A stretch of DNA of 36,794 bases from Prevotella sp. (lineage in GTDB: Bacteria; Bacteroidota; Bacteroidia; Bacteroidales; Bacteroidaceae): positions 1 to 36,794 of the forward strand of contig JAFUUL010000048.1 in the NCBI GenBank assembly GCA_017483805.1. Direction: 5' to 3'. The position numbers were made by a program, and so were the translations under genes. The notes below the pieces were generated by a model. The model made no database searches. It saw only the letters and a program-made list of their open reading frames with translations, and had not been told where the DNA came from. Positions 24,374 to 33,835 of this stretch are shown in pieces. Each line of letters starts with the position of its first letter. Position 1 is the stretch's first letter.

Positions 24374-25826
24374 GATAAACTGGCGCATCATATCAAAGAT
24401 CATCGGCTCGCTGCTCTTCATCGAGGCCTTCTTCATGGGCTGCTGCTGCGGACTGGCCATGTCGTTCCACGAGGACGACGTGATGGCCTTCCTGGCCTCC
24501 ACGCTGCTCACGTTCAGCGGCGCCTTCATCTTCCTGTTCTTCGGACGCGAGGCCGAAAACTCCCTCAGCCGCCGCGACGCCTATGTCGTGGTCACGCTCA
24601 CCTGGGTGGTGTTCTCCTTCTTTGGTATGTTCCCCTTCCTCATCCACGGCTCCATGACCAGCATCACCGATGCCTACTTCGAGACCATGTCGGGCTTCAC
24701 CACCACCGGTGCCACCGTCATCGACGATGTGGAGTCTCTGCCCCATGGCCTGCTCTTCTGGCGCTCGCTCATGCAGTGGATAGGCGGCTTGGGCATCGTC
24801 TTCTTCACCATCGCCATCCTGCCCTCGCTCGTAGGCGGCAGCGTCAAGGTGTTTGCCGCCGAGGCCACCGGCCCTATGCGCTCTAAGATGCACCCCCGAC
24901 TGAGCACCTCGGCCAAGTGGATATGGAGCATCTACCTGCTGCTCACCATCGCCTGCGCCCTGTCGTTCTGGCTGGCGGGCATGGACTGGTTCGACGCCAC
25001 CAACTACTCCATGTCGACCACCGCCACCGGCGGCTTCTCCACCCACAACGGCACCATTTTCCTGGCCAAGCCCAGCATCGAGTATCTGGCCATCCTGTTC
25101 CAGTTTCTGGCCGGCATCAACTTCACGCTGCTCTACGTCAGCGTCTTCAAGTTCCGTTTCGGCTCGCTCTTCCGCAACTCCGAATTTAAGATGTACGTGG
25201 CCACCATCCTCGTGGCCACCCTGTGGATCATGTATCTGCTCATCACCCGCCTGGACTACACCATCGAGCCGGCCTTCCGCTCGGCCCTCTTCCAGGTGGT
25301 GTCGTTCATCACCACCACCGGTCTGAGCAACACCGACGCCGGTGCCTGGCCCCACATCACGTGGGTCATCCTCATGCTGCTCATGTTCATGGGTGCCTGT
25401 GCCGGCAGCACCACCGGCGGCTTCAAGAGCATCCGCGTGCTCATGCTGCTCAAGGTGCTGCGCAACGAGTTCCGCCACATCCTCCACCCCAATGCCGTGC
25501 TGCCCGTCAAGATGAGCGGCCAGAGCATCCCTCAGGGCCGGCTGGTCACGCTCCTGGCCTTCGTCACCATCTACGTCATCATGCTGCTGGCCACCGCCAC
25601 CATCATCAATGTCTCCGGCGTCGACATCACCAACGCCCTGACCATCTCGCTCAGCCTCATCAGCAACGTGGGTGCCGGTCTCGACACCAACATCGGCCCG
25701 CAGATGTCGTGGGCCGACCTCTCCTGCGGCATCAAGTGGCTCTGCTCCTTCCTCATGCTCGTAGGCCGTCTGGAGATCATCGCCGTGCTGGTGCTCTTCA
25801 CCCGTTCGTTCTGGAAGGAGAACTGA
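24372..25826 (+). CDS. trkH: Trk potassium uptake channel TrkH
   Basis: Inner-membrane K+ channel subunit, 484 aa, with about ten hydrophobic helices arranged as four pore repeats. Selectivity-loop segments are visible: SGFTTTGATV (first repeat), STTATGGFSTHNGT (second), VSFITTTGLSNTD (third), and NVGAGLDTNIGP (fourth). CAGSTTGGFKSIRVL is the conserved region before the last repeat. The start is a TTG at 24372: MINWRIISKIIGSLLFIEAF is what family N-termini look like, and the next ATG (residue 22) would cut the first helix. It works with TrkA just upstream. It marks the end of the GC-rich core block. Confidence 0.95.
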   Translation: MINWRIISKIIGSLLFIEAFFMGCCCGLAMSFHEDDVMAFLASTLLTFSGAFIFLFFGREAENSLSRRDAYVVVTLTWVVFSFFGMFPFLIHGSMTSITDAYFETMSGFTTTGATVIDDVESLPHGLLFWRSLMQWIGGLGIVFFTIAILPSLVGGSVKVFAAEATGPMRSKMHPRLSTSAKWIWSIYLLLTIACALSFWLAGMDWFDATNYSMSTTATGGFSTHNGTIFLAKPSIEYLAILFQFLAGINFTLLYVSVFKFRFGSLFRNSEFKMYVATILVATLWIMYLLITRLDYTIEPAFRSALFQVVSFITTTGLSNTDAGAWPHITWVILMLLMFMGACAGSTTGGFKSIRVLMLLKVLRNEFRHILHPNAVLPVKMSGQSIPQGRLVTLLAFVTIYVIMLLATATIINVSGVDITNALTISLSLISNVGAGLDTNIGPQMSWADLSCGIKWLCSFLMLVGRLEIIAVLVLFTRSFWKEN

Positions 25827-25883
25827 TGCTAGTCACTCGTACCTCTTGTTCAACCAGATATGAAGAAAAAGAATTTCTGAATT

Positions 25884-25912
25884 ATACAAATTTGCGTAAC
25901 GCATTTTTGTAT
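25884..25912. terminator. Stem-loop between trkH and the Abi gene
   Basis: ATACAAATTTGCG and CGCATTTTTGTAT pair with two mismatches around a TAA loop in the gap between two convergent genes. There is no T run directly after it on either strand, so the terminator role is tentative. Confidence 0.4.
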
Positions 25913-25960
25913 AAAAAGAAAAAAGATACGCCGAACTTACTGTTCTTGTCGGGTACAAAG

Positions 25961-26956
25961 TTAGGCATTTCTTCCCAGACGACCAAACATTGAGGCGATT
26001 ATCTTCCCAAGCCACGTCTTCTGGTCTCTCTTTGTTGCCCAGATAGGCTCATGCTCCCATCCTGCAAAGAAGCCCATGCGCTGGATAGGCAGATGGCTGT
26101 ACTTCTTCATCAGTTGGAAAATGTCCGCCCTCAGTCTATTGCCAGGATTGACCGCATCACAGAGATAAAGCATAGCAGTGATGATATAGAAAGGGCGCTT
26201 TGCCTCTATGTCTGACAATTGATGCGATAGCCATATATTATGAGGATTTAGTGGTTCCGAAGGACGCTTAACCATATTGCGGCTCCATAAACGGGAGTGG
26301 TGGGCGACGATGTTTCGCAAATATGCAATCGCTTCTAGCCAACTGGCCAAGTCACTGTGGATGCTCAGCCCGAACTCGTTGGCAATCTTTGACTTCGCTG
26401 GCAATTGGTGGCCGATGTTCTTATAGAGTTTGGACAAATCGCCCAACGTCGCTACTTCCAGAATAATCCATGCATCAGGGTCTTCGTCACTCTGCCATCC
26501 ATTCTGAATCTGGTTAGGGTGCTGTCGTCTGTAATCTTTGGCGAACACTTCACCGCTCTCAGCAAATTCCACCTGAAGATGCTGTAGTTGTTTGGCATAT
26601 AGATTAGCATTATTGAACAGTGTACCTTCCATATACCAAAGTCCCCCATGTGCTTGAGACATGTGGTAAATCAACTTTGTGCGCAAGGCAATCTCTATGG
26701 TGTCAATGGCAGTGAACAATATCTTTCGCAAGGCATTGTCGAATTCATACCGCTCAATCACATCATCAAAACAACTTCCATTCATAAAGACATGATTAAC
26801 GGGGTCACTCTGCATATCCCACCAATAGGCTTTCAGACGGAAGTAACTGATACGCTTGAGGCATTCCGTTGCGAAAGCCCTGTCGCGGAACTGCATCCCG
26901 CGATTTTCAAGCAGATCAATCTGCTCCTGTATGGTTCTCGATGCCTTGTTAGCCAT
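25961..26956 (-). CDS. Abi family abortive-infection protein (Abi_2/AbiD-AbiF type, HEPN-like)
   Basis: Predicted phage-defence or toxin protein, 331 aa, cytoplasmic. The N-terminus ASRTIQEQIDLLENRGMQF and ECLKRISYFRLKAYWW are hallmarks of the Abi_2 family (PF07751). The later segment AYLRNIVAHHSRLW carries Arg214-Asn-x3-His219, the Rx4-6H motif of HEPN ribonucleases, so RNA cleavage is the likely activity (inference). The gene is clearly AT-richer than trkH next door, suggesting transfer. A -33/-7 promoter lies about 95-130 nt upstream, and a 12-bp perfect palindrome touches the start codon. No protein antitoxin is adjacent; the divergent non-coding stretch (27150-27515) is the obvious partner candidate. 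Confidence 0.85.
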   Translation of the reverse strand: MANKASRTIQEQIDLLENRGMQFRDRAFATECLKRISYFRLKAYWWDMQSDPVNHVFMNGSCFDDVIERYEFDNALRKILFTAIDTIEIALRTKLIYHMSQAHGGLWYMEGTLFNNANLYAKQLQHLQVEFAESGEVFAKDYRRQHPNQIQNGWQSDEDPDAWIILEVATLGDLSKLYKNIGHQLPAKSKIANEFGLSIHSDLASWLEAIAYLRNIVAHHSRLWSRNMVKRPSEPLNPHNIWLSHQLSDIEAKRPFYIITAMLYLCDAVNPGNRLRADIFQLMKKYSHLPIQRMGFFAGWEHEPIWATKRDQKTWLGKIIASMFGRLGRNA

Positions 26957-26968
26957 ATTTCATGAAAT
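26957..26968. promoter_or_regulatory. Perfect 12-bp palindrome at the Abi start codon
   Basis: ATTTCATGAAAT lies immediately upstream of the minus-strand ATG (26954-26956). It could be an operator or a small hairpin that shields the start codon. It also contains an out-of-frame ATG. Confidence 0.5.
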
Positions 26969-27055
26969 GACCCGCCGGCAGTTCTGATGGTATGCACAGC
27001 GGGTACTGTTATCGTAAGACGGGCTAACAGCCCTTTGTCTTTCTGAATTTCGGTG

Positions 27056-27087
27056 CAAAGATAGTATATTTTTCTCATAAATACAAC
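27056..27087 (-). promoter_or_regulatory. Promoter of the Abi gene
   Basis: On the minus strand, GTTG (27084-27087), 20 nt, TATCTTTG (27056-27063). It predicts a leader of about 90 nt. The leader holds a GGGCT/AGCCC hairpin (27031-27043) and distant complementary ACCCGC/GCGGGT segments. Confidence 0.7.
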
Positions 27088-27136
27088 TTTTTCAAAGTTT
27101 TTTTGGAAAAATGATAGGAATTTGCCACTTTTTTCG

Positions 27137-27144
27137 TAACTTTG
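27137..27144 (+). promoter_or_regulatory. Divergent -7 box facing the non-coding region
   Basis: TAACTTTG matches TAnnTTTG and is followed by GCACCCG, with transcription expected from about 27150. No convincing -33 box is found at 19-21 nt. No credible protein gene begins within 420 nt downstream. Confidence 0.5.
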
Positions 27145-27149
27145 CACCC

Positions 27150-27515
27150 GACCAAGCCTGTCACTCGTGGCAGGGCGGGTCAAGACATCGATGGAATCCT
27201 CGTAGGCCGACGGAGCCGTTCGTAGGGCTGGGCCGAGAGGGAAAGGACGTTTTCTGAACGTTACCTGTCTGTGTAGTCAAACTTAGCAACTTTGAAACGT
27301 GTCACAGCGGTAATGCAACTGAAGCGTCTGCGTGGGTGTATTATATCCTTACCATACATTACTTCTATTTGAAAGAGAATGAGGTGTAATGATGTGGCGG
27401 TATATATAATGTCACTCGGCGTGGGCTGGCTTGCGTTGCTTATCCTTGACACGGGGCAATGCTAAGGCCTGACTACAGGGATAGGCGCGGAGGAACAAAC
27501 TCCCACGTCTTTTTG
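27150..27515 (+). ncRNA. Candidate structured non-coding RNA next to the Abi gene
   Basis: Part of the 26957-27578 stretch without a convincing protein gene. The 5' part holds a stem CCTGTCA/TGGCAGG with loop CTCG (27157-27174), a CTCG/CGAG arm around 27196-27237, a small hairpin ACGTT/AACGT, and an AGACA/TGTCT pair that could close these. The 3' part has GGCGTGGG (27418-27425) pairing with CCCACGTC (27502-27509) around internal stems GCGTTGC/GCAATGC and CCTG/CAGG, and TCTTTTTG follows, as at the end of a terminated RNA. It shows none of the hallmarks of RNase P, tmRNA, SRP or 6S RNA. It may be one RNA or two, or just the leader of the lipoprotein genes. Confidence 0.35.
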
Positions 27516-27578
27516 TTTCCAAACTAAAAACAGAATAATAACGCTGAATTTGGGAGTACAGGAAGCATTTTGTTGCTT

Positions 27579-27668
27579 ATGTCGATAAAAAGATTATGGT
27601 TAGGGGCTTCAATCGGCCTTTTGTTTGTGAGTTGTAAGGACTTTCTCTTTTTTTATGATCAAGGTTAA
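27579..27668 (+). CDS. Very short lipoprotein-like ORF (29 aa)
   Basis: ATG at 27579, stop at 27668. It begins MSIKRLWLGASIGLLFVSC, a signal peptide with lipobox FVSC-K, then only about ten residues (KDFLFFYDQG). It sits 18 nt before another lipoprotein gene on the same strand. It could be a genuine tiny lipoprotein, in the manner of lysis/entericidin-like peptides, or a truncated gene head. The codon pattern fits the neighbours. Confidence 0.4.
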   Translation: MSIKRLWLGASIGLLFVSCKDFLFFYDQG

Positions 27669-27686
27669 ACTAAACAGAGGTATATT

Positions 27687-28148
27687 ATGTCGAAGAAAGT
27701 TTTAAGTTTGATGGCCATTCTTATGGTAATAAGTTTTGGCTTTTTTTCATGTGAAGATGATGAGAACGATGATCTTACTGGTTATTGGGTAAAAGAGAAT
27801 CATCTTAATAATCCAGAACGAGGAAAAGGGGGATATGTTCGTTCTGTAGGATATCAGTTCCTTGGAAATGGTGAGGTAAGAGTCTTGCAAATCCAGCACA
27901 CTGGTCATAGTTCTAGATACTATGGAGCAGAGGCTGATACTTCCTGGGAGAAGTTAACGGAACGAAATGGAGTCTCATTCTACATCAATCCGAATTACTC
28001 AACAAAAAACTACCAGCGTTCAGGTAATGAAATCTATATCGACGTTGCGTCTAATCCGGTAATTATGACAATAACTGGAGGTGATAGAATTGTTTCAACT
28101 TCCGCTGATGAATATTCTGATGGCGTATATGTACGTGTAAAAAAATAG
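27687..28148 (+). CDS. Small lipoprotein, lipocalin-like
   Basis: 153 aa. Signal peptide with lipobox FFSC (cysteine at residue 22) followed by an acidic EDDENDD tether, a Bacteroidetes surface-export-like signal. The mature part begins LTGYWVKEN and is strand-rich, which resembles small lipocalin-like lipoproteins (Lipocalin_4 type), but I see no catalytic or binding motif. It is first of a run of AT-rich small-lipoprotein genes; 48 nt separate it from the next. Confidence 0.75.
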   Translation: MSKKVLSLMAILMVISFGFFSCEDDENDDLTGYWVKENHLNNPERGKGGYVRSVGYQFLGNGEVRVLQIQHTGHSSRYYGAEADTSWEKLTERNGVSFYINPNYSTKNYQRSGNEIYIDVASNPVIMTITGGDRIVSTSADEYSDGVYVRVKK

Positions 28149-28196
28149 AATAAAAAGAAATCGCTCACAATATTAATTAAAAAAGAAAAAATCAAA

Positions 28197-28667
28197 ATGA
28201 AAACAATTAAACTTATGTCAATGTTGCTCTTCGCTGTAGCACTTAGTTTTGGATTCGCCAGTTGCGACGATGACAATGATGATGATGAGCCTGCACCCGT
28301 CGAAGTGAACTATGCAAGCTTGATACCAGGCCACTGGGCCAATACGGGACTAGCAAGCAACCTTTCAGAAACAATTAGTTTCAATTATAAAGGAGCCGGT
28401 ACTATCTGTTTTTATGATTTAGTAGAGAATGACTGGGGGGCGACCGCTTTTGGTACCTATACTCTGAACGGTAACAAGATCACGGCTTCCTACAACCAAG
28501 TAACTGTATATGACAGTAATTACAAGTCGGGAACCTATCATGGTTTTACAGACGGTAAAAGTAAGACTGTAACTTATACAATCCAATCATGCGATGGTAA
28601 GGAACTCGTCTTGAAAGATGAGAGCGGAAAGATGCAGACATATAAGAAATATGCGGAAGTAAAATAA
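28197..28667 (+). CDS. Small lipoprotein, lipocalin-like
   Basis: 156 aa. Lipobox FASC with an Asp-rich tether (DDDNDDDE), a likely surface-lipoprotein signal. The mature part starts LIPGHWANTG and has repeated strand motifs FGTYTLNGNKITASY and YTIQSCDGKELVLKDESGK. This is the usual pattern of Lipocalin_4-type lipoproteins: G-x-W near the start, then GTY-x-x-x-GN-x-I. The ligand is unknown. Probably co-transcribed with the gene before it; a strong stem-loop follows at 28772. Confidence 0.75.
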   Translation: MKTIKLMSMLLFAVALSFGFASCDDDNDDDEPAPVEVNYASLIPGHWANTGLASNLSETISFNYKGAGTICFYDLVENDWGATAFGTYTLNGNKITASYNQVTVYDSNYKSGTYHGFTDGKSKTVTYTIQSCDGKELVLKDESGKMQTYKKYAEVK

Positions 28668-28771
28668 GTCAGTGTTGCTGATGATTATCTTTCATGGTCA
28701 TGAGCGATACCACAAGGTTTATCTATCGGCATTGAAATGGCAATCATTGTAATGGTTACTATCCTATGATA

Positions 28772-28806
28772 AACTTGCCTAAAGCCCATGCGACTTTGGG
28801 CAAGTT
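28772..28806 (+). terminator. Strong stem-loop after the second lipoprotein gene
   Basis: A 13-bp stem (AACTTGCCTAAAG / CTTTGGGCAAGTT, one G-U) with a 9-nt loop. It is followed by A-rich, not T-rich, sequence on the plus strand. It likely ends or processes the lipoprotein transcript. Confidence 0.55.
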
Positions 28807-28868
28807 AAAAAGTTCTCTGGATTAGGAAAAGATGTACAACTGAAAACTCTATTGTTGCATTTTTACGT

Positions 28869-29417
28869 ATGAAGAAGACGTTCTTTTTTTCTATTATTAT
28901 AATGGCTTTTGCTTTTATGTCATCTTGCGACACATTCTGGCAAGGAATGGCGCAGGGCGTTGGCGGCTATGGGGGTTATGGTATGGGTGGATATCAGGTT
29001 ATGCCTGGTGGCTTTGTTCGCAATACAAGTATGGACTATTTGCTTGACCCCCGCTATGCCATGCAGCAAGTCTTGAATCAAGAGCAGCAGGAATATCAGG
29101 CCGCAAAACGCTATCGTCCTGACCTAACATTGGAGCAATTTAGGATTGAAAAAGGCCAGGCTATTCAAATGATGAATAGCAACAGTGGTGGTTTATCTTC
29201 GAGTCCTTCATCGTCTAGTAGTTCTTCGAGATCGACCACTTCATCTTCAAACGGTAGTATGTGCCGTCTCTGTGCAGGATCTGGAGTGTGTAAAACATGC
29301 TCAGGGAAAGGTTATTATTATAATCCCCTTGACCTCTCAAAAAAAGTTCTGTGCCCTAATTGCCAGAGTAATCATAATGGCAAATGCTCTTCATGTGGTG
29401 GAACTGGTAAAAAGTGA
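28869..29417 (+). CDS. Lipoprotein with DnaJ-type zinc-finger tail
   Basis: 182 aa. Lipobox MSSC (cysteine at residue 20), then a Gly/Tyr-rich stretch (GVGGYGGYGMGGY). A helical segment contains QEYQAAKRYRPDLTLEQF, then a Ser-rich linker. The C-terminus has four CxxC motifs: CRLCAGSG, CKTCSGKG, CPNC and CSSCGGTG. This is the order of the DnaJ central cysteine-rich domain, which binds two zinc ions, but there is no J domain. A lipid-anchored DnaJ-like zinc finger would act outside the inner membrane, so a chaperone or scaffold role in the envelope is possible but unproven. The RPxLTxxQF motif is shared with the lipoprotein at 30231. The next gene starts 31 nt later. Confidence 0.8.
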   Translation: MKKTFFFSIIIMAFAFMSSCDTFWQGMAQGVGGYGGYGMGGYQVMPGGFVRNTSMDYLLDPRYAMQQVLNQEQQEYQAAKRYRPDLTLEQFRIEKGQAIQMMNSNSGGLSSSPSSSSSSSRSTTSSSNGSMCRLCAGSGVCKTCSGKGYYYNPLDLSKKVLCPNCQSNHNGKCSSCGGTGKK

Positions 29418-29448
29418 GTCCTTTCGCAGCGTATTATAATTTAGGAAG

Positions 29449-30189
29449 ATGAGTTCTATATTACGGCCCTTTTTGATATTGTTTCTGTTACTGGCATGCA
29501 CCTGCTTGAATGCCCAGCCGCGAAGTAGGGCAGAGGAAGGTGGCAAAACGAGATACTATAGACACGAAGTGAATGTCAGTATTGGGGGCGTCGCTGTGCG
29601 TTCTGGTTGGAGTGATGATTATGAAAGAACTGTAATGGATGATTTTGGCTTAGTGGTAGGGAAATTTGGTGCTGGACATGGGCCCGGCACTCTAGTCTAT
29701 TTTGAATGGGATGAAACTCCAAAATTGAATTACAATAGTATATATAGGTCAGTCAGTTACTATTACCATTGCAATCATCATGTTGCTTTGGGCGGCTTGG
29801 TGGGCTATTGTAGTGTTAAGGATAACCTTGGGTACTCTGAAGTAAATAGATGGTCGGAAGAACTACAGAGAACTGGCGAAACTTTTGTGAGAGGCACTTC
29901 GTTGTTCCTTATGCCATCTGTTAAGTGGTCGTGGCTAAACAATCAATGGTGTAGTCTCTATATGAAGGCTACAGCAGGAGTTCATTATCAAAGCCTGTAC
30001 CTTGAATCTGAAACTATTCCAGAAGAACAATTGGATGGATATGACAAGTACCATCTGGGCCTAGGTTATTATGTAACTCCTTTCGGATGGGAGATTGGCA
30101 AACAGAAAGTCCGCTGGTTTATAGAATTCGGGTTAGGTTCAAACAACAACTTCCAGATGGGATTAACGTATCGATTTGGGAGATTTTAG
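29449..30189 (+). CDS. Small outer-membrane beta-barrel-like protein
   Basis: 246 aa with a signal peptide (LILFLLLACTCLNAQ). The mature sequence alternates polar and hydrophobic residues in many short strands (HEVNVSIGGVAVRSGW, YYHCNHHVALGGLVGY, WFIEFGLGSNNNFQMGL). It ends ...TYRFGRF with a terminal Phe, the usual signature of outer-membrane barrels recognised by Bam. No named family is recognised with confidence. It lies between two lipoprotein genes that share a motif, so the three may form one envelope unit. Confidence 0.7.
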   Translation: MSSILRPFLILFLLLACTCLNAQPRSRAEEGGKTRYYRHEVNVSIGGVAVRSGWSDDYERTVMDDFGLVVGKFGAGHGPGTLVYFEWDETPKLNYNSIYRSVSYYYHCNHHVALGGLVGYCSVKDNLGYSEVNRWSEELQRTGETFVRGTSLFLMPSVKWSWLNNQWCSLYMKATAGVHYQSLYLESETIPEEQLDGYDKYHLGLGYYVTPFGWEIGKQKVRWFIEFGLGSNNNFQMGLTYRFGRF

Positions 30190-30230
30190 TATTGTAAGAG
30201 ATTGCAAATTGATATGAATGTGTAAGAGTT

Positions 30231-30470
30231 ATGGAAAAGAACTTAATGCGATTATCAGCAATCGTAGCAGTGTCTGCATTACTGAACTCATGTGCGCTTT
30301 TTGAACTGGGAAAAGCGACAGTGCAAAGTGTTAATCACCTGATGGAGTATTCCACACAAATCAATCAGGAATATGAAGAGGCGGTAAAGACGCGTCCGAC
30401 ATTGACATTCAACCAGTTTCTGGAGGAGAAGAAGACGCAAAGGGAAGGGCAAAAGGGTATAACAGAGTAA
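30231..30470 (+). CDS. Small lipoprotein sharing an RPxLTxxQF motif
   Basis: 79 aa. Signal peptide and lipobox LNSC (cysteine at residue 21), followed by a single amphipathic helical region. The segment QEYEEAVKTRPTLTFNQFLEEK closely matches QEYQAAKRYRPDLTLEQFRIEK in the lipoprotein at 28869, so the two may be partial paralogues or bind the same partner. It is the last gene before the truncated AAA gene. Function unknown. Confidence 0.65.
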   Translation: MEKNLMRLSAIVAVSALLNSCALFELGKATVQSVNHLMEYSTQINQEYEEAVKTRPTLTFNQFLEEKKTQREGQKGITE

Positions 30471-30502
30471 AGGATGCCCTAAGCGATTTTCCTCTCAAAA
30501 CC

Positions 30503-30533
30503 ATTGCGGATTCAGGAAAAATGTGTATCTTTG
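30503..30533 (+). promoter_or_regulatory. Promoter of the truncated AAA gene
   Basis: ATTG (30503-30506), 19 nt, TATCTTTG (30526-30533), 21 nt before the ATG at 30555. Confidence 0.65.
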
Positions 30534-30554
30534 CAGCGATTAACGTCCAGAGCA

Positions 30555-30821
30555 ATGAAATATCCAATAGGAATACAGAATTTCGAGAAGATGCGACGTG
30601 AGGGGTATGCTTACGTCGACAAGACGGCACTGATGTACAAGATGGTGTCGGAAGGCTCGTATTATTTTCTCTGCCGTCCGCGCCGTTTCGGCAAGTCTCT
30701 CATGTATGCATTACACCTCATTGTAAATCCTGGAAAGACACAGCCCCACAGAAAGTTTTTTTCTTGCAAAAATCTGTCACATCTGTCACCTGCCCAGTGT
30801 TTATCGGGGTTTGCGGGGTGA
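30555..30821 (+). pseudogene. Truncated AAA-ATPase / PD-(D/E)XK nuclease family gene
   Basis: Only the first ~50 codons are recognisable: YPIGIQNFEKMRREGYAYVDKT and YYFLCRPRRFGKSL. That is the N-terminus and P-loop of the large Bacteroidetes family with an AAA-ATPase-like domain (PF09820) and a C-terminal PD-(D/E)XK nuclease domain, normally over 500 aa. After FGKSL the sequence loses similarity and runs into the left inverted repeat of the neighbouring element, stopping at 88 aa. The rest of the gene is not found on the far side of the element. The promoter is intact, so the fragment may still be transcribed. Confidence 0.8.
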
Positions 30822-30847
30822 CAGATGTGGTGACAGATGTGATAGAT
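30755..30847. repeat. Left inverted repeat of the VapE unit
   Basis: It matches the complement of 33435-33524 with about five substitutions outside a short variable centre. Internally it is also symmetric: two ATCTGTCAC units, a centre with TTTATCGGGGTTTG, then two GTGACAGAT units and GTGATAGAT. It ends two bases from the VapE stop, so it may also act as its terminator. Confidence 0.8.
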
Positions 30848-30848
30848 A

Positions 30849-32717
30849 TCAGCGGAAATTCATCTTTTTCAACAAATATTCCGTGCCTTTTTTGCTGCGG
30901 CGGCGCACCAGGTTCTCCTGATTGGCCAGGAAGCGGCCGAAGGAGATGACCCCCACCTTGCTGACAGCCGAACCGGCCACGCGGCGTATGTGCTGATAGA
31001 TGGCGGCCGTGGTCATCCACTCGCCCTCGTCGGCCGAGGCCGCCGGCTGGAAGCACTCGCCGAAGTAGAGTTCCACGGGCGACTGCTGCTGGAACTGGCG
31101 GTTCGACTCCATCACCAGCCGCGTCTGCTCGTCGTCCAGCCAGTAGGGCTCGCCCTGGTCGAGCAGGGCCATGGCCTGGGCATAGAGTTGGCGGTGGTTG
31201 ATGCGGTAGGAGGTGTCGATGGGCCCCGTCAGTTCGATGCCTATGAAGCGGCGGTTGCCCGTGGGGTCGGCTAGGATGTCGGTCATGTTGGCGGTGGCTA
31301 TGAACGAGGCCAGGCGCGGAAACTCCTCCACATGGCGGCCGTAGGGCCGCTTCACCTTGACGGAGGCCAACTGGATGAGGTTCTTCAGGAAGCCCTCCTG
31401 CACCTTGGGACTGATCTGGTTGAACTCGTCCAGGTTGATGAGCAGAAACTGGCTCATGGCCTGCAGCACGGCCTTCTTCTCGGCCAGCACCAGGTTGTCG
31501 CAGTAGCCCCACTGCAGGTCCAGCGGGATGAGCGACTTGCAGAACGTGGACTTGTTGTAGCCCTGACGCGAGATGAGCAGCGGCGCCATCGCGTTGCCGT
31601 AGCGAGGGTTCATGCCGCGCCACTGGGCCACCATGCCCAGGAACCACGTGCGGAACCACAGCGGCCAGTTTGGGTTCTGGGTGGGCACGGTGCGCGCCAG
31701 CCGCCCTATGTGGTCCTGACCGTCCCACTTGTCGCTCAGGTCCCACAGATACTCGTCGATGGGGTCGTAGGAGGGCACCATGTTCGACTTCACGTAGCGG
31801 CTGATGTCGCGGTCCCACACGTCGAGGCCGGCCAGCCGGGCCTCCATGGCCAGCGAGTTCTGCACGCGGTCGTCCACGGGCCGCCACCCCAGGTGCCACT
31901 TCGCCTTCGAGCGATACTCCGCGTAGCCCATCACCATGTTCATGCGGAAGATATAGTGACCCTCCAGCAATTGTATCAGGCTGCGCATCTTCTGGCCGAC
32001 CACGCCCGTCTCGGCCGGCTCCTCCGCGTCGGCGGCAGGCGTGGCGGCGGTGGCGGCAACGTCGGCCAGCGAGGCCAGCGGCAGCCCGTCGGGCACCTGC
32101 AGCGGGGCGGGACTCGTGCAGACGATGGGGGCCGCATCGTAGGTGGTGCGGAAGCCCGTGTGCAGCAGGGCCGTCTCGCCGCTGGGCAAGGCGGGGGCCA
32201 CGGTGACGGTGCGGTCGTTGGAGGCGATGCGCACCACCACGCCGTAGAGGGCGCACACCAGCGGACAGGCCTGGCGCAGCAGCCGCTCGGCCTCGTCCTC
32301 CGTCTGAGGCACCACGCCGCCGGGCCGGCTGACGCCCACGATGATCTTCACCGTGCGCCCGCTGCTGCCCAGCAGGGCGGCCACGGTCATGGGCAGCATG
32401 GCGGCGCGGCTCTTCACGGCCTCAGCCTCGTCGTCGTCGCACAGGGGCCCGACGGAGAGCGTCAGCAGCCCGTTGTTGTGGGTCATCACCAGGTTGCCGC
32501 CCCTGTCGGCCTTCATCTCGGCCGAGGGCACCACGAGCGGCAGCCGGTGCATATACTTATAGACAGAATAGGGCGTGGCGTAGCGCACGAAGTGGCGCAG
32601 GCCGTCCACGAGGCCGAACTGGCCGTCAGCCTGCACATCCTGCATCACCTCGCCGATGGTGGCAGTCTTCAGGTGACGCTTGTTTTGCTTGGTGGTTCTG
32701 ATGAGTGTAAATTTCAT
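30849..32717 (-). CDS. VirE-N / VapE-type primase-helicase-like protein
   Basis: 622 aa. The N-terminal ~200 residues (MKFTLIRTTKQNKRHLKTATI...) resemble the BT4734/VirE-N domain found in Bacteroidales mobile DNA. An Ala-rich linker follows. The middle is a VapE/DUF5906-type superfamily-3-like ATPase: SRQGYNKSTFCK is the Walker A site (Lys389, with Asn where Gly is usual), FLLINLDEFNQI is Walker B (Asp430-Glu), and ATANMTDILADPTGNRRF is the sensor/arginine region. A winged-helix-like tail ends it (MTTAAIYQHIRRVAG). Such proteins serve phage satellites and plasmids as replication helicases. GC and Ala content are far above the flanks, a sign of foreign origin. Six iteron-like repeats lie 33 nt before its start. 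Confidence 0.85.
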   Translation of the reverse strand: MKFTLIRTTKQNKRHLKTATIGEVMQDVQADGQFGLVDGLRHFVRYATPYSVYKYMHRLPLVVPSAEMKADRGGNLVMTHNNGLLTLSVGPLCDDDEAEAVKSRAAMLPMTVAALLGSSGRTVKIIVGVSRPGGVVPQTEDEAERLLRQACPLVCALYGVVVRIASNDRTVTVAPALPSGETALLHTGFRTTYDAAPIVCTSPAPLQVPDGLPLASLADVAATAATPAADAEEPAETGVVGQKMRSLIQLLEGHYIFRMNMVMGYAEYRSKAKWHLGWRPVDDRVQNSLAMEARLAGLDVWDRDISRYVKSNMVPSYDPIDEYLWDLSDKWDGQDHIGRLARTVPTQNPNWPLWFRTWFLGMVAQWRGMNPRYGNAMAPLLISRQGYNKSTFCKSLIPLDLQWGYCDNLVLAEKKAVLQAMSQFLLINLDEFNQISPKVQEGFLKNLIQLASVKVKRPYGRHVEEFPRLASFIATANMTDILADPTGNRRFIGIELTGPIDTSYRINHRQLYAQAMALLDQGEPYWLDDEQTRLVMESNRQFQQQSPVELYFGECFQPAASADEGEWMTTAAIYQHIRRVAGSAVSKVGVISFGRFLANQENLVRRRSKKGTEYLLKKMNFR

Positions 32718-32749
32718 GATCTTGTTTTTTTGTTAGGTCAAACATTTCC

Positions 32750-32881
32750 TTCCAGGCGTTGGAACAATCTGTTCCAGCGGGTGGAGCATTTCCTTCCAAG
32801 GCTTGGAACACTTTGTTCCAAGGCCTGGAACACTTTCTTCCAACGCCTGGAACACTTTCTTCCAACGCCTGGAACCTTCTG
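32750..32881. repeat. Six tandem 22-bp dyad repeats (iteron-like)
   Basis: Six units of exactly 22 bp start at 32750, 32772, 32794, 32816, 32838 and 32860. Each is TTCCAnnnnnTGGAA-like followed by CACTTTS. Most units carry the inverted half-sites TTCCA and TGGAA. The first, second and last units are the most diverged. They lie between the small Cys-rich gene and the VapE gene with no coding potential of their own. An A/T-rich tract (TTGTTTTTTTGTTAGG) adjoins on the VapE side, an arrangement like a replication origin with iterons. Operator clusters are the alternative. Confidence 0.85.
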
Positions 32882-32902
32882 CCCCGACGCCAGTCGGCAC
32901 GC

Positions 32903-33343
32903 TCAGAAGTTGTACGACGCCTCATAGTGCTCGAAGGCCAGGTCGTCGGTGTAGCCATAACCGGCCATGATGTCCATGATGTGGCGCTGCTGTTCGGTAG
33001 TGAGTTTGCGCTCGCCGCTGTTGTAGCGGTAGTAGGTGCCCACGCTGCCCAGATAGGCCGTGATGGCCTCGCGGATGGGCGCACGGTGGTGGCGCTGCAC
33101 CCTCTTGTAGAGCGGCGCGAAGCCCCAGGCGGCCCTGATCTCCTGGGCCTGAGTGAAAAACGGGCACTCGCCTGCGCCGAGCGCGTTAGGATAGATGGCC
33201 GGCCCGTAGGTGACGCTGCCGGGCAGGTGCTGTCCTGCCACGTAGCGTATGCACTCGCTGCACCTGGGGCAGCCGCCGTTGAAGCAGAGCCGGTAGCCTG
33301 CCGAGACCCTGCTGAAGTCAAAATTGCTGATGTCTTTCGTCAT
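32903..33343 (-). CDS. Small Cys-rich protein of Bacteroidales mobile elements (DUF6078-like)
   Basis: 146 aa, cytoplasmic, no signal peptide. The N-terminal half has CFNGGCPRCSECIRYV (C-x4-C-x2-C-x2-C) and later ECPFF, likely a zinc or Fe-S site. The C-terminal half is helical (APIREAITAYLGSVGTYYRYNSGERKLTTEQQRHIMDIM) and looks suited to nucleic-acid or protein binding. I recall similar proteins listed as DUF6078 but am not certain. It has its own promoter and is upstream of VapE on the same strand, inside the repeat-bounded unit; a replication or control partner of VapE is a reasonable guess. Confidence 0.75.
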   Translation of the reverse strand: MTKDISNFDFSRVSAGYRLCFNGGCPRCSECIRYVAGQHLPGSVTYGPAIYPNALGAGECPFFTQAQEIRAAWGFAPLYKRVQRHHRAPIREAITAYLGSVGTYYRYNSGERKLTTEQQRHIMDIMAGYGYTDDLAFEHYEASYNF

Positions 33344-33368
33344 ATTAAGATGTGTGTTTTTATCTCTG

Positions 33369-33400
33369 CAAAGATACTAAATTTTTGCGCTTTTTGCAAG
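33369..33400 (-). promoter_or_regulatory. Promoter of the VapE unit
   Basis: On the minus strand, CTTG (33397-33400), 20 nt, TATCTTTG (33369-33376), about 25 nt before the small Cys-rich gene. Confidence 0.65.
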
Positions 33401-33434
33401 AAAATCGGCAAAAAATTTAGCCAAAATCTGTTAA

Positions 33435-33524
33435 ATCTATCACATCTATCACCCCATCTGCCACCCCTCAAACCCCGATAAACAAAGGAAAGTGACAGAA
33501 GTGACAGATTTTTTCCGAAAAAAC
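33435..33524. repeat. Right inverted repeat of the VapE unit
   Basis: Complement of the left repeat, with the same internal layout (ATCTATC and CATCTATC, the centre with CAAACCCCGATAAAC, then two GTGACAGA units). A matching poly-T/poly-A segment (GAAAAAAC at 33517-33524) extends the similarity outward. Confidence 0.8.
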
Positions 33525-33601
33525 ACATGTAGGGAATTCAAGAGGCCGTTCAAAAGTGCCATTATGCGATCTTTGCACCCAACAATAAATAAGTTAGAAG
33601 T

Positions 33602-33835
33602 ATGACGACTATACAGAGATTGAAATCTACGCGTATGGCACCGTATATCGGGCTGATGCAGGAACTGACTTCTGAGGAGAAGCAGTTGGTGGTGATGTTC
33701 CTCACGGAGCAGTCGCAAGACGCGACCACACGCAACGGCTGGGCTGCTGCCAAGCAGGCACATGCCGACGGCGAGGACAGGCTGATGGCTGCCGACGTGT
33801 TTGAGGACGAAACGATGGAGGACTGGAAATGGTAA
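33602..33835 (+). CDS. Small acidic protein, antitoxin-like
   Basis: 77 aa. MTTIQRLKSTRMAPYIGLMQELTSEEKQLVVMFLTEQ predicts two or three helices, followed by an acidic tail (EDETMEDWKW). No family is recognised with certainty; size, helicity, acidic tail and the overlapping start of a second ORF (ATG at 33829, inside the last codons) are what one sees in type II antitoxin genes. The coupled ORF ends after 17 codons, so any toxin has been lost. A weak -7-like GATCTTTG lies at 33568-33575. Confidence 0.6.
   Translation: MTTIQRLKSTRMAPYIGLMQELTSEEKQLVVMFLTEQSQDATTRNGWAAAKQAHADGEDRLMAADVFEDETMEDWKW

Follow-up and report, generated by a model that had tools for sequence, protein, structure and literature searches.

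How does a DNA unit framed by inverted repeats spread when no protein that it encodes has a known strand-joining activity? The question is raised by 2.8 kb of Prevotella DNA within the window, by which we mean the whole 36,794-nucleotide stretch analysed here, contig C196 of a 3.63-Mb, 199-contig draft genome (G000). The answer towards which we lean is a family of transposable elements in which this unit is the parent copy, the one with the genes, and in which the VapE helicase drives the spread.

The unit occupies positions 30744–33537 and comprises two genes (DUF6078 and the VapE helicase), an array between them and inverted ends of some 100 bp made of inverted GTGACAGAT boxes. We set its limits there because the alignment to a near genome, G142, which has the unit at 94.4% identity, stops at both positions. 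The left end, on the 3′ side of the VapE gene (30744–30850), runs from an AT-rich outer terminus through two inverted boxes and a spacer to three direct GTGACAGAT boxes. The right end, on the 5′ side of DUF6078 (33423–33537), is an inverted copy, and each end, read from terminus to direct boxes, is an imperfect palindrome. The arms 30798–30847 and 33435–33484 are 92% complementary, and 30755–30794 and 33487–33526 are 80% complementary. With 86% agreement over ~90 bp, the inverted ends that had been reported stand; ‘near-identical’ was slightly too strong a word for them. The pattern GTGACAGATNTGACAGAT, with up to two mismatches, occurs 28 times in the 3.63-Mb genome and its reversed control not at all. 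Folded as single strands, six of seven ends gave z-scores of −3.8 to −9.2. The left end of the window (30766–30850) scores −5.28, and the exception is its right end (33423–33512, folded as the plus strand), at only −1.80. A scan of 30500–33800 against Rfam gave no match.

The unit was also thought to differ in composition from its surroundings. Measured in windows, its GC content is 56–74%, which does set it apart from the near flanks at 39–55% (39–45% over 28.0–30.7 kb, 43–55% over 33.5–36.7 kb) but not from the first 27 kb of the contig; because those lie at 55–62%, it is the near flanks that are as unusual as the unit. The left end does sit at a broken gene, as had been noticed: a PF09820 AAA-ATPase gene, covering profile positions 1–48 of 201, is cut ~40 bp outside it (a distance judged by eye), and its missing remainder was not found in any of the three ORFs on the right that were scanned with Pfam. 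This cut gene belongs to ~4.9 kb of mostly low-GC DNA (25825–30743; 41% GC over 27–30 kb) that lies between conserved DNA and the unit and also contains an Abi_2 gene (25961–26956). G142 has just 31 bp in its place.

What do the ends enclose? The VapE gene (30849–32717, minus strand) encodes 622 amino acids with, in order, a BT4734-like N-terminus (PF08800), a VapE helicase domain (PF05272) and a DUF3874 C-terminus (PF12990). Upstream of it, in tandem on the same strand, the DUF6078 gene (32903–33343, assigned by Pfam) encodes 146 amino acids, with four (nearly) invariant cysteines at 20, 25, 31 and 60 in an alignment of 17. Between the two lies a palindromic array, TTCCAAGGCNTGGAACA, of six units spaced at 22 bp (32736–32889), which is kept in dispersed copies. 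The Pfam domains and the 22-bp-spaced units thus confirm the first description of the contents as a VapE gene, a small Cys-rich gene and repeats. Across 60 elements (the window and the 59 relatives described below) the helicase keeps its Walker A Lys-Ser/Thr, its Walker B Asp-Glu and its arginine pair without exception. The N-terminal domain resembles the BT4734-like archaeo-eukaryotic primases (PF08800, E 2.8e-13) but differs from them in motif I, hhhDhD/E as defined in PMC5862659. The acidic pair is gone in nearly all 60 elements, with Asp at window residue 88 in two and D/E at residue 90 in 18. The sole significant solved relative in the PDB is 7pds, ‘Similar to D. nodosus vapE’ (E 7e-11). 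Among defence models only a PrimPol-associated one matches, at the primase-like domain; VapE matches six phage helicase or primase families in PHROGs, which has no family for DUF6078, and NCBIfam gave no match to either protein. Scans with Pfam, defence, PHROGs and NCBIfam models found no transposase or other strand-joining enzyme in the unit, and none of the Y1/HUH families of Pfam matches either gene.

The unit is not alone. From a scan of 84,980 genomes came 200 relatives, and the best 80 of these, assigned to Prevotella, Segatella, Prevotellaceae, Bacteroidaceae or Bacteroidales apart from two labelled ‘uncultured bacterium’, were taken further. The left flank of each was aligned to the reverse complement of its right flank and the score compared with shuffled sequence, for the 78 with enough flank (L098 and L138, cut by contig ends, were left out). 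Inverted ends surround the VapE gene in 59 of the 78, with scores of 34–203 against shuffled maxima of 20–32; 49 are strong (at least 45) and ten weak (34–44), and one of the 59, L088, is probably misplaced. The right arm begins 3–571 bp past the matched VapE segment, and within 64 bp in 55 of the 59. Of the 19 relatives that showed no inverted ends, several (L084, L102 and L113) have a left flank shorter than 750 bp and are perhaps truncated. The same unit of 2.2–3.3 kb, with one or two genes, recurs across many genomes. DUF6078 is present in 54 of the 60 elements, always upstream of VapE, and the palindromic array lay between the two genes in each of ten elements inspected by eye, its sequence differing from element to element. 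Four elements (L134, L152, L154 and L153, the last with weak ends, score 39) consist of end, promoter, VapE and end in 2.2–2.3 kb, without DUF6078 or array. Because some elements carry VapE alone, VapE and not DUF6078 is the candidate driver; because these same elements lack both DUF6078 and the array, DUF6078 probably binds the array and regulates or helps.

The architecture of the ends is constant, and their boxes are element-specific: GTGACAGAT in the window, and GTGATATT, GTGGCAGAT, GTGGCAGCA, GTGGTAGAT, GTGAGGAAA and GTATCAAAGTCTCAT elsewhere. Perfect inverted 9-mers occur within 82 of 120 ends, against 3 of 120 shuffled. The best match of a left end is its own right end in 36 of 60 elements, and in 51 of 60 when elements with a VapE at least 75% identical are excluded. 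Comparing distance matrices of protein domains and boxes, we found weak partial correlations for the helicase (0.20) and DUF6078 (0.15), each with none of 199 permutations as high, and 0.02 for DUF3874; we base no conclusion on these values. We considered whether all members of the family have one conserved outer terminus in common and set the idea aside, the enrichment of CCTACA-like termini being weak (29 of 120 against 12–21). CGCGCG-type blocks lie near the ends of seven of the 60 elements (L089, L108, L109, L110, L128, L136 and L158), and L109 has the same GC palindrome at both ends.

The ends also occur without a VapE gene. In the genome of the window they recur at six other places, on contigs C46, C72, C6, C25, C104 and C126 (E ≤ 1e-15), with no VapE or DUF6078 match at any of them. 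The TTCCA array adjoins the end at five of these places. On C126 the array is accompanied by both ends, again with no gene, and the C6 copy is a single compact palindrome. We searched 14 other genomes with 14 joined ends and found the cognate end at its own element in all 14, at between one and 17 further places in 11, and nowhere else in three. RGIG3765 and RUI392 have 17 extra places each, P. pectinovora has 14 (short matches of 42–72 bp) and the remaining genomes have 7, 6, 5, 5, 4, 2, 1 and 1, a total of 79 over the 11 genomes; 12 of 126 end matches were to the element end of another genome. Of these 79 copies, 37 were compared with their parent, together with one non-cognate copy. Within the 0.5–4 kb inspected (two were cut by contig ends), none of the 38 has DUF6078 or the body of VapE, and 19 have an array match near the end. 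Many dispersed copies have one end only. Others have two and are too short for genes (G309, G302, G311, G312, G308, G306 and S. copri Indica), those of G306 and G308 matching the end of another element and not their own. The copy in G309 has clearly arisen from its VapE element, L121, by internal deletion: what remains is the left end, then the intergenic leader with its array, the final ~30 codons of VapE and the right end, 94.7% identical over 209 bp.

The earlier note had held that single ends at many sites without a VapE gene would speak against a mobile unit. Taken literally, such ends exist at the six places; since five of them keep the array and the G309 copy is a deletion of its parent, we read them, and the dispersed gene-less copies in general, as dependent, MITE-like copies. 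That many gene-less copies retain the array suggests a role for it in cis, perhaps as a site for DUF6078. Some related structures deserve a mention of their own. At L015 (G000:C40:11500-11640) and L016 (G000:C27, at a contig end), inverted GTGACAGATGTGACAGAT-type copies surround a GTACGCGCG palindrome, a different small structure using the same boxes as the unit ends. At L208 (G315:C114) a separate AGTAATCC tandem array lies just outside a solo end. At L216 (1560–1630; S. copri Indica C23) one end has two tandem copies of the outer terminus TTGCCTACGTGAAAA, which a nested or repeated event could have produced.

Do these elements move? Two pairs of the same element have unrelated near flanks, L085/L087 (85%) and L131/L135 (88%). 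RUG037 has a truncated copy where tf2-5 has the full one, so the difference between L085 and L087 may be in part local rearrangement. Element ends often fall at synteny breaks, as with the 4.9 kb beside the unit that G142 lacks, and in G298 the C104 flanks are ~22.6 kb apart. Two cases come nearest to an empty site. At the C6 place the box core is missing from G142, where 49 bp are unaligned and G000 has 109, and terminus-like letters remain, a deletion or a footprint. Indica has a copy immediately 3′ of a gene at which S. copri iA622 and G045 have none, the far flank not being shared. Genomes sharing flanks with L085, L087, L135 and C126 share only one flank near the element. A fixed position in all relatives without empty sites had been named as evidence against mobility, and here the outcome is mixed: the C104 copy lies at the same place in G142, L144/L148, L156/L158 and L108/L136 are likewise inherited in place, and flank queries found no clean empty site with both flanks joined. 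The claim of a minimal mobile element without a transposase is borne out in its outline by ends in relatives, dispersed copies, a deletion derivative and the absence of a recurring flanking recombinase; the label ‘satellite-like’ is not.

We infer that the helicase drives this movement. VapE would work like the Rep protein of the SaPIs, whose C-terminal domain binds iterons that immediately follow the gene for Rep (PMC7581432): a self-loading hexamer of VapE would bind the iterons at both ends and open the DNA there, one of the bound ends lying directly downstream of the VapE gene. A host polymerase would copy the unwound unit, or a shorter unit with the same ends, and the copy would enter new intergenic sites without target duplication, joined by host repair or by an activity not detected here. 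We propose iteron-directed loading and replicative copying because both the SaPI Rep iterons and one end here adjoin the helicase gene downstream. The likeness to SaPI/SCC Rep extends to a helicase related in sequence (7pds), to iterons in the same place and to a C-terminal domain as the candidate DNA reader (PMC7581432). The difference is that here two inverted, origin-like ends bound a unit of one or two genes, with no integrase and with gene-less dispersed copies. By its sequence the unit shares with SaPIs and other PICIs a VapE/Rep-type helicase with iterons, and it lacks their integrase and packaging genes, a family that looks integrase-like by eye flanking just two of 60 loci.

The unit may instead be a passenger, with an unlinked HUH/Y1 or DDE transposase reading the outer terminus and moving both the unit and its short copies, VapE being cargo or regulator. 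Such an arrangement would account for a unit that has no strand-joining enzyme of its own and for an outer terminus, CCTACA/CCCTACAYG, that by eye is similar in several genomes, and BrickBuilt, a MITE of comparable kind, resembles IS5-family elements at its ends (PMC4596501). We nevertheless think it unlikely. The boxes differ between elements but match within one element and in the short copies found alongside it in its genome, indicating an element-encoded reader, and the terminus is weakly enriched. In the flanks of 60 loci, taken to at most 4 kb and containing 351 ORFs, no recombinase family recurs beside the elements; the most shared family, SusC-like by eye, is found at just five loci, and of the 14 largest families one, at two loci, looks like a tyrosine recombinase/integrase. 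Target duplications, which the earlier note suggested seeking, were at control level: 6-mers in 6 of 56 elements against 7–8 of 56 at control offsets, with four near-identical elements dropped and boundaries approximate in many.

Or is there little current movement at all? VapE could be a vertically kept host gene, domesticated in the manner of a RAYT, its flanking palindromes having dispersed in the distant past and being homogenised today through recombination. Dispersed palindromic copies, positions shared between near genomes and the parallels with REPINs and RAYTs (PMC3116915) all fit, as does the single close VapE copy in the genome of the window. The other VapE genes of that genome are 28–40% identical and lie on other contigs; all eight loci tested for inverted ends gave either shuffle-level scores (six) or weak ends (L041, 41 against 28 shuffled; L042, 34 against 27). 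A vertically kept gene should not, we think, be matched at E ≤ 1e-110 in only 46 of 200 congeners or six times in one of them (G083), nor sit in diverse flanks with boxes that differ between related elements, and we regard this account as quite improbable.

As in the REP/REPIN–RAYT systems (PMC3116915), palindromes flank a gene and recur elsewhere in its genome, singly or as inverted doublets, here in the genome of the window and in 11 of 14 further ones. The unit differs in having a helicase and no Y1 HUH transposase, ends of ~100 bp with iterons and an internal palindromic array. BrickBuilt of Porphyromonas gingivalis (PMC4596501) likewise has inverted ends enclosing a 23-bp tandem array in intergenic DNA, but its ends resemble those of the IS5 family, whereas ours match a VapE element. 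The unit has short copies that lack genes and carry the ends of their parent, which fits the general description of a MITE; the transposase and target site duplication of a DDE insertion sequence were not found. Helitrons and IS91 combine an HUH nuclease with a helicase, and at the level of Pfam profiles the unit has no HUH family.

More tentatively, we suggest as a real possibility a class of transposable element whose only common protein is a Rep-like, primase-dead VapE: its inverted ends would be cognate replication origins, helicase-driven copying would give full and miniature copies, and insertion would proceed without an element-encoded recombinase. If this is true, transposition has a further route, alongside the DDE, HUH, serine, tyrosine and reverse-transcriptase systems; the mobile element would belong to a kind that has no known cutting enzyme, and intergenic repeats of major gut bacteria (Prevotella, Segatella copri) would have a source. 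Since box and protein come in many different pairs, the recognition step is directly testable. A text search of the literature turned up no paper on such a unit, which is weak evidence given that most subscription journals and bioRxiv preprints lie outside its coverage, and no mention of DUF6078 or DUF3874 in the literature searched.

VapE genes are common, and are mostly explained as replication helicases of phages or islands. It is very improbable that the unit is what decay has left of a replication module from a phage satellite, plasmid or integrative island, for although VapE relatives occur in 409 phage and 90 plasmid records, all are below 60% identity, the same 2.2–3.3-kb unit stands in many genomes, no close relative was found among the viral contigs of IMG/VR, the unit has no packaging genes, and the two phage-labelled records that we opened look chromosomal by eye and carry inverted ends themselves. 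These two gut-virome records, among those listed, are L250 (MT836291.1) and L251 (MT838091.1), both labelled Bacteriophage sp., with VapE relatives of 693 and 698 amino acids and end scores of 56 and 107 against shuffled scores of 26 and 25. By eye both look like pieces of Bacteroidales chromosome: L250 has Cas-like ORFs, and in L251 a PF09820-like ATPase adjoins the element and DUF6078 lies in the opposite orientation.
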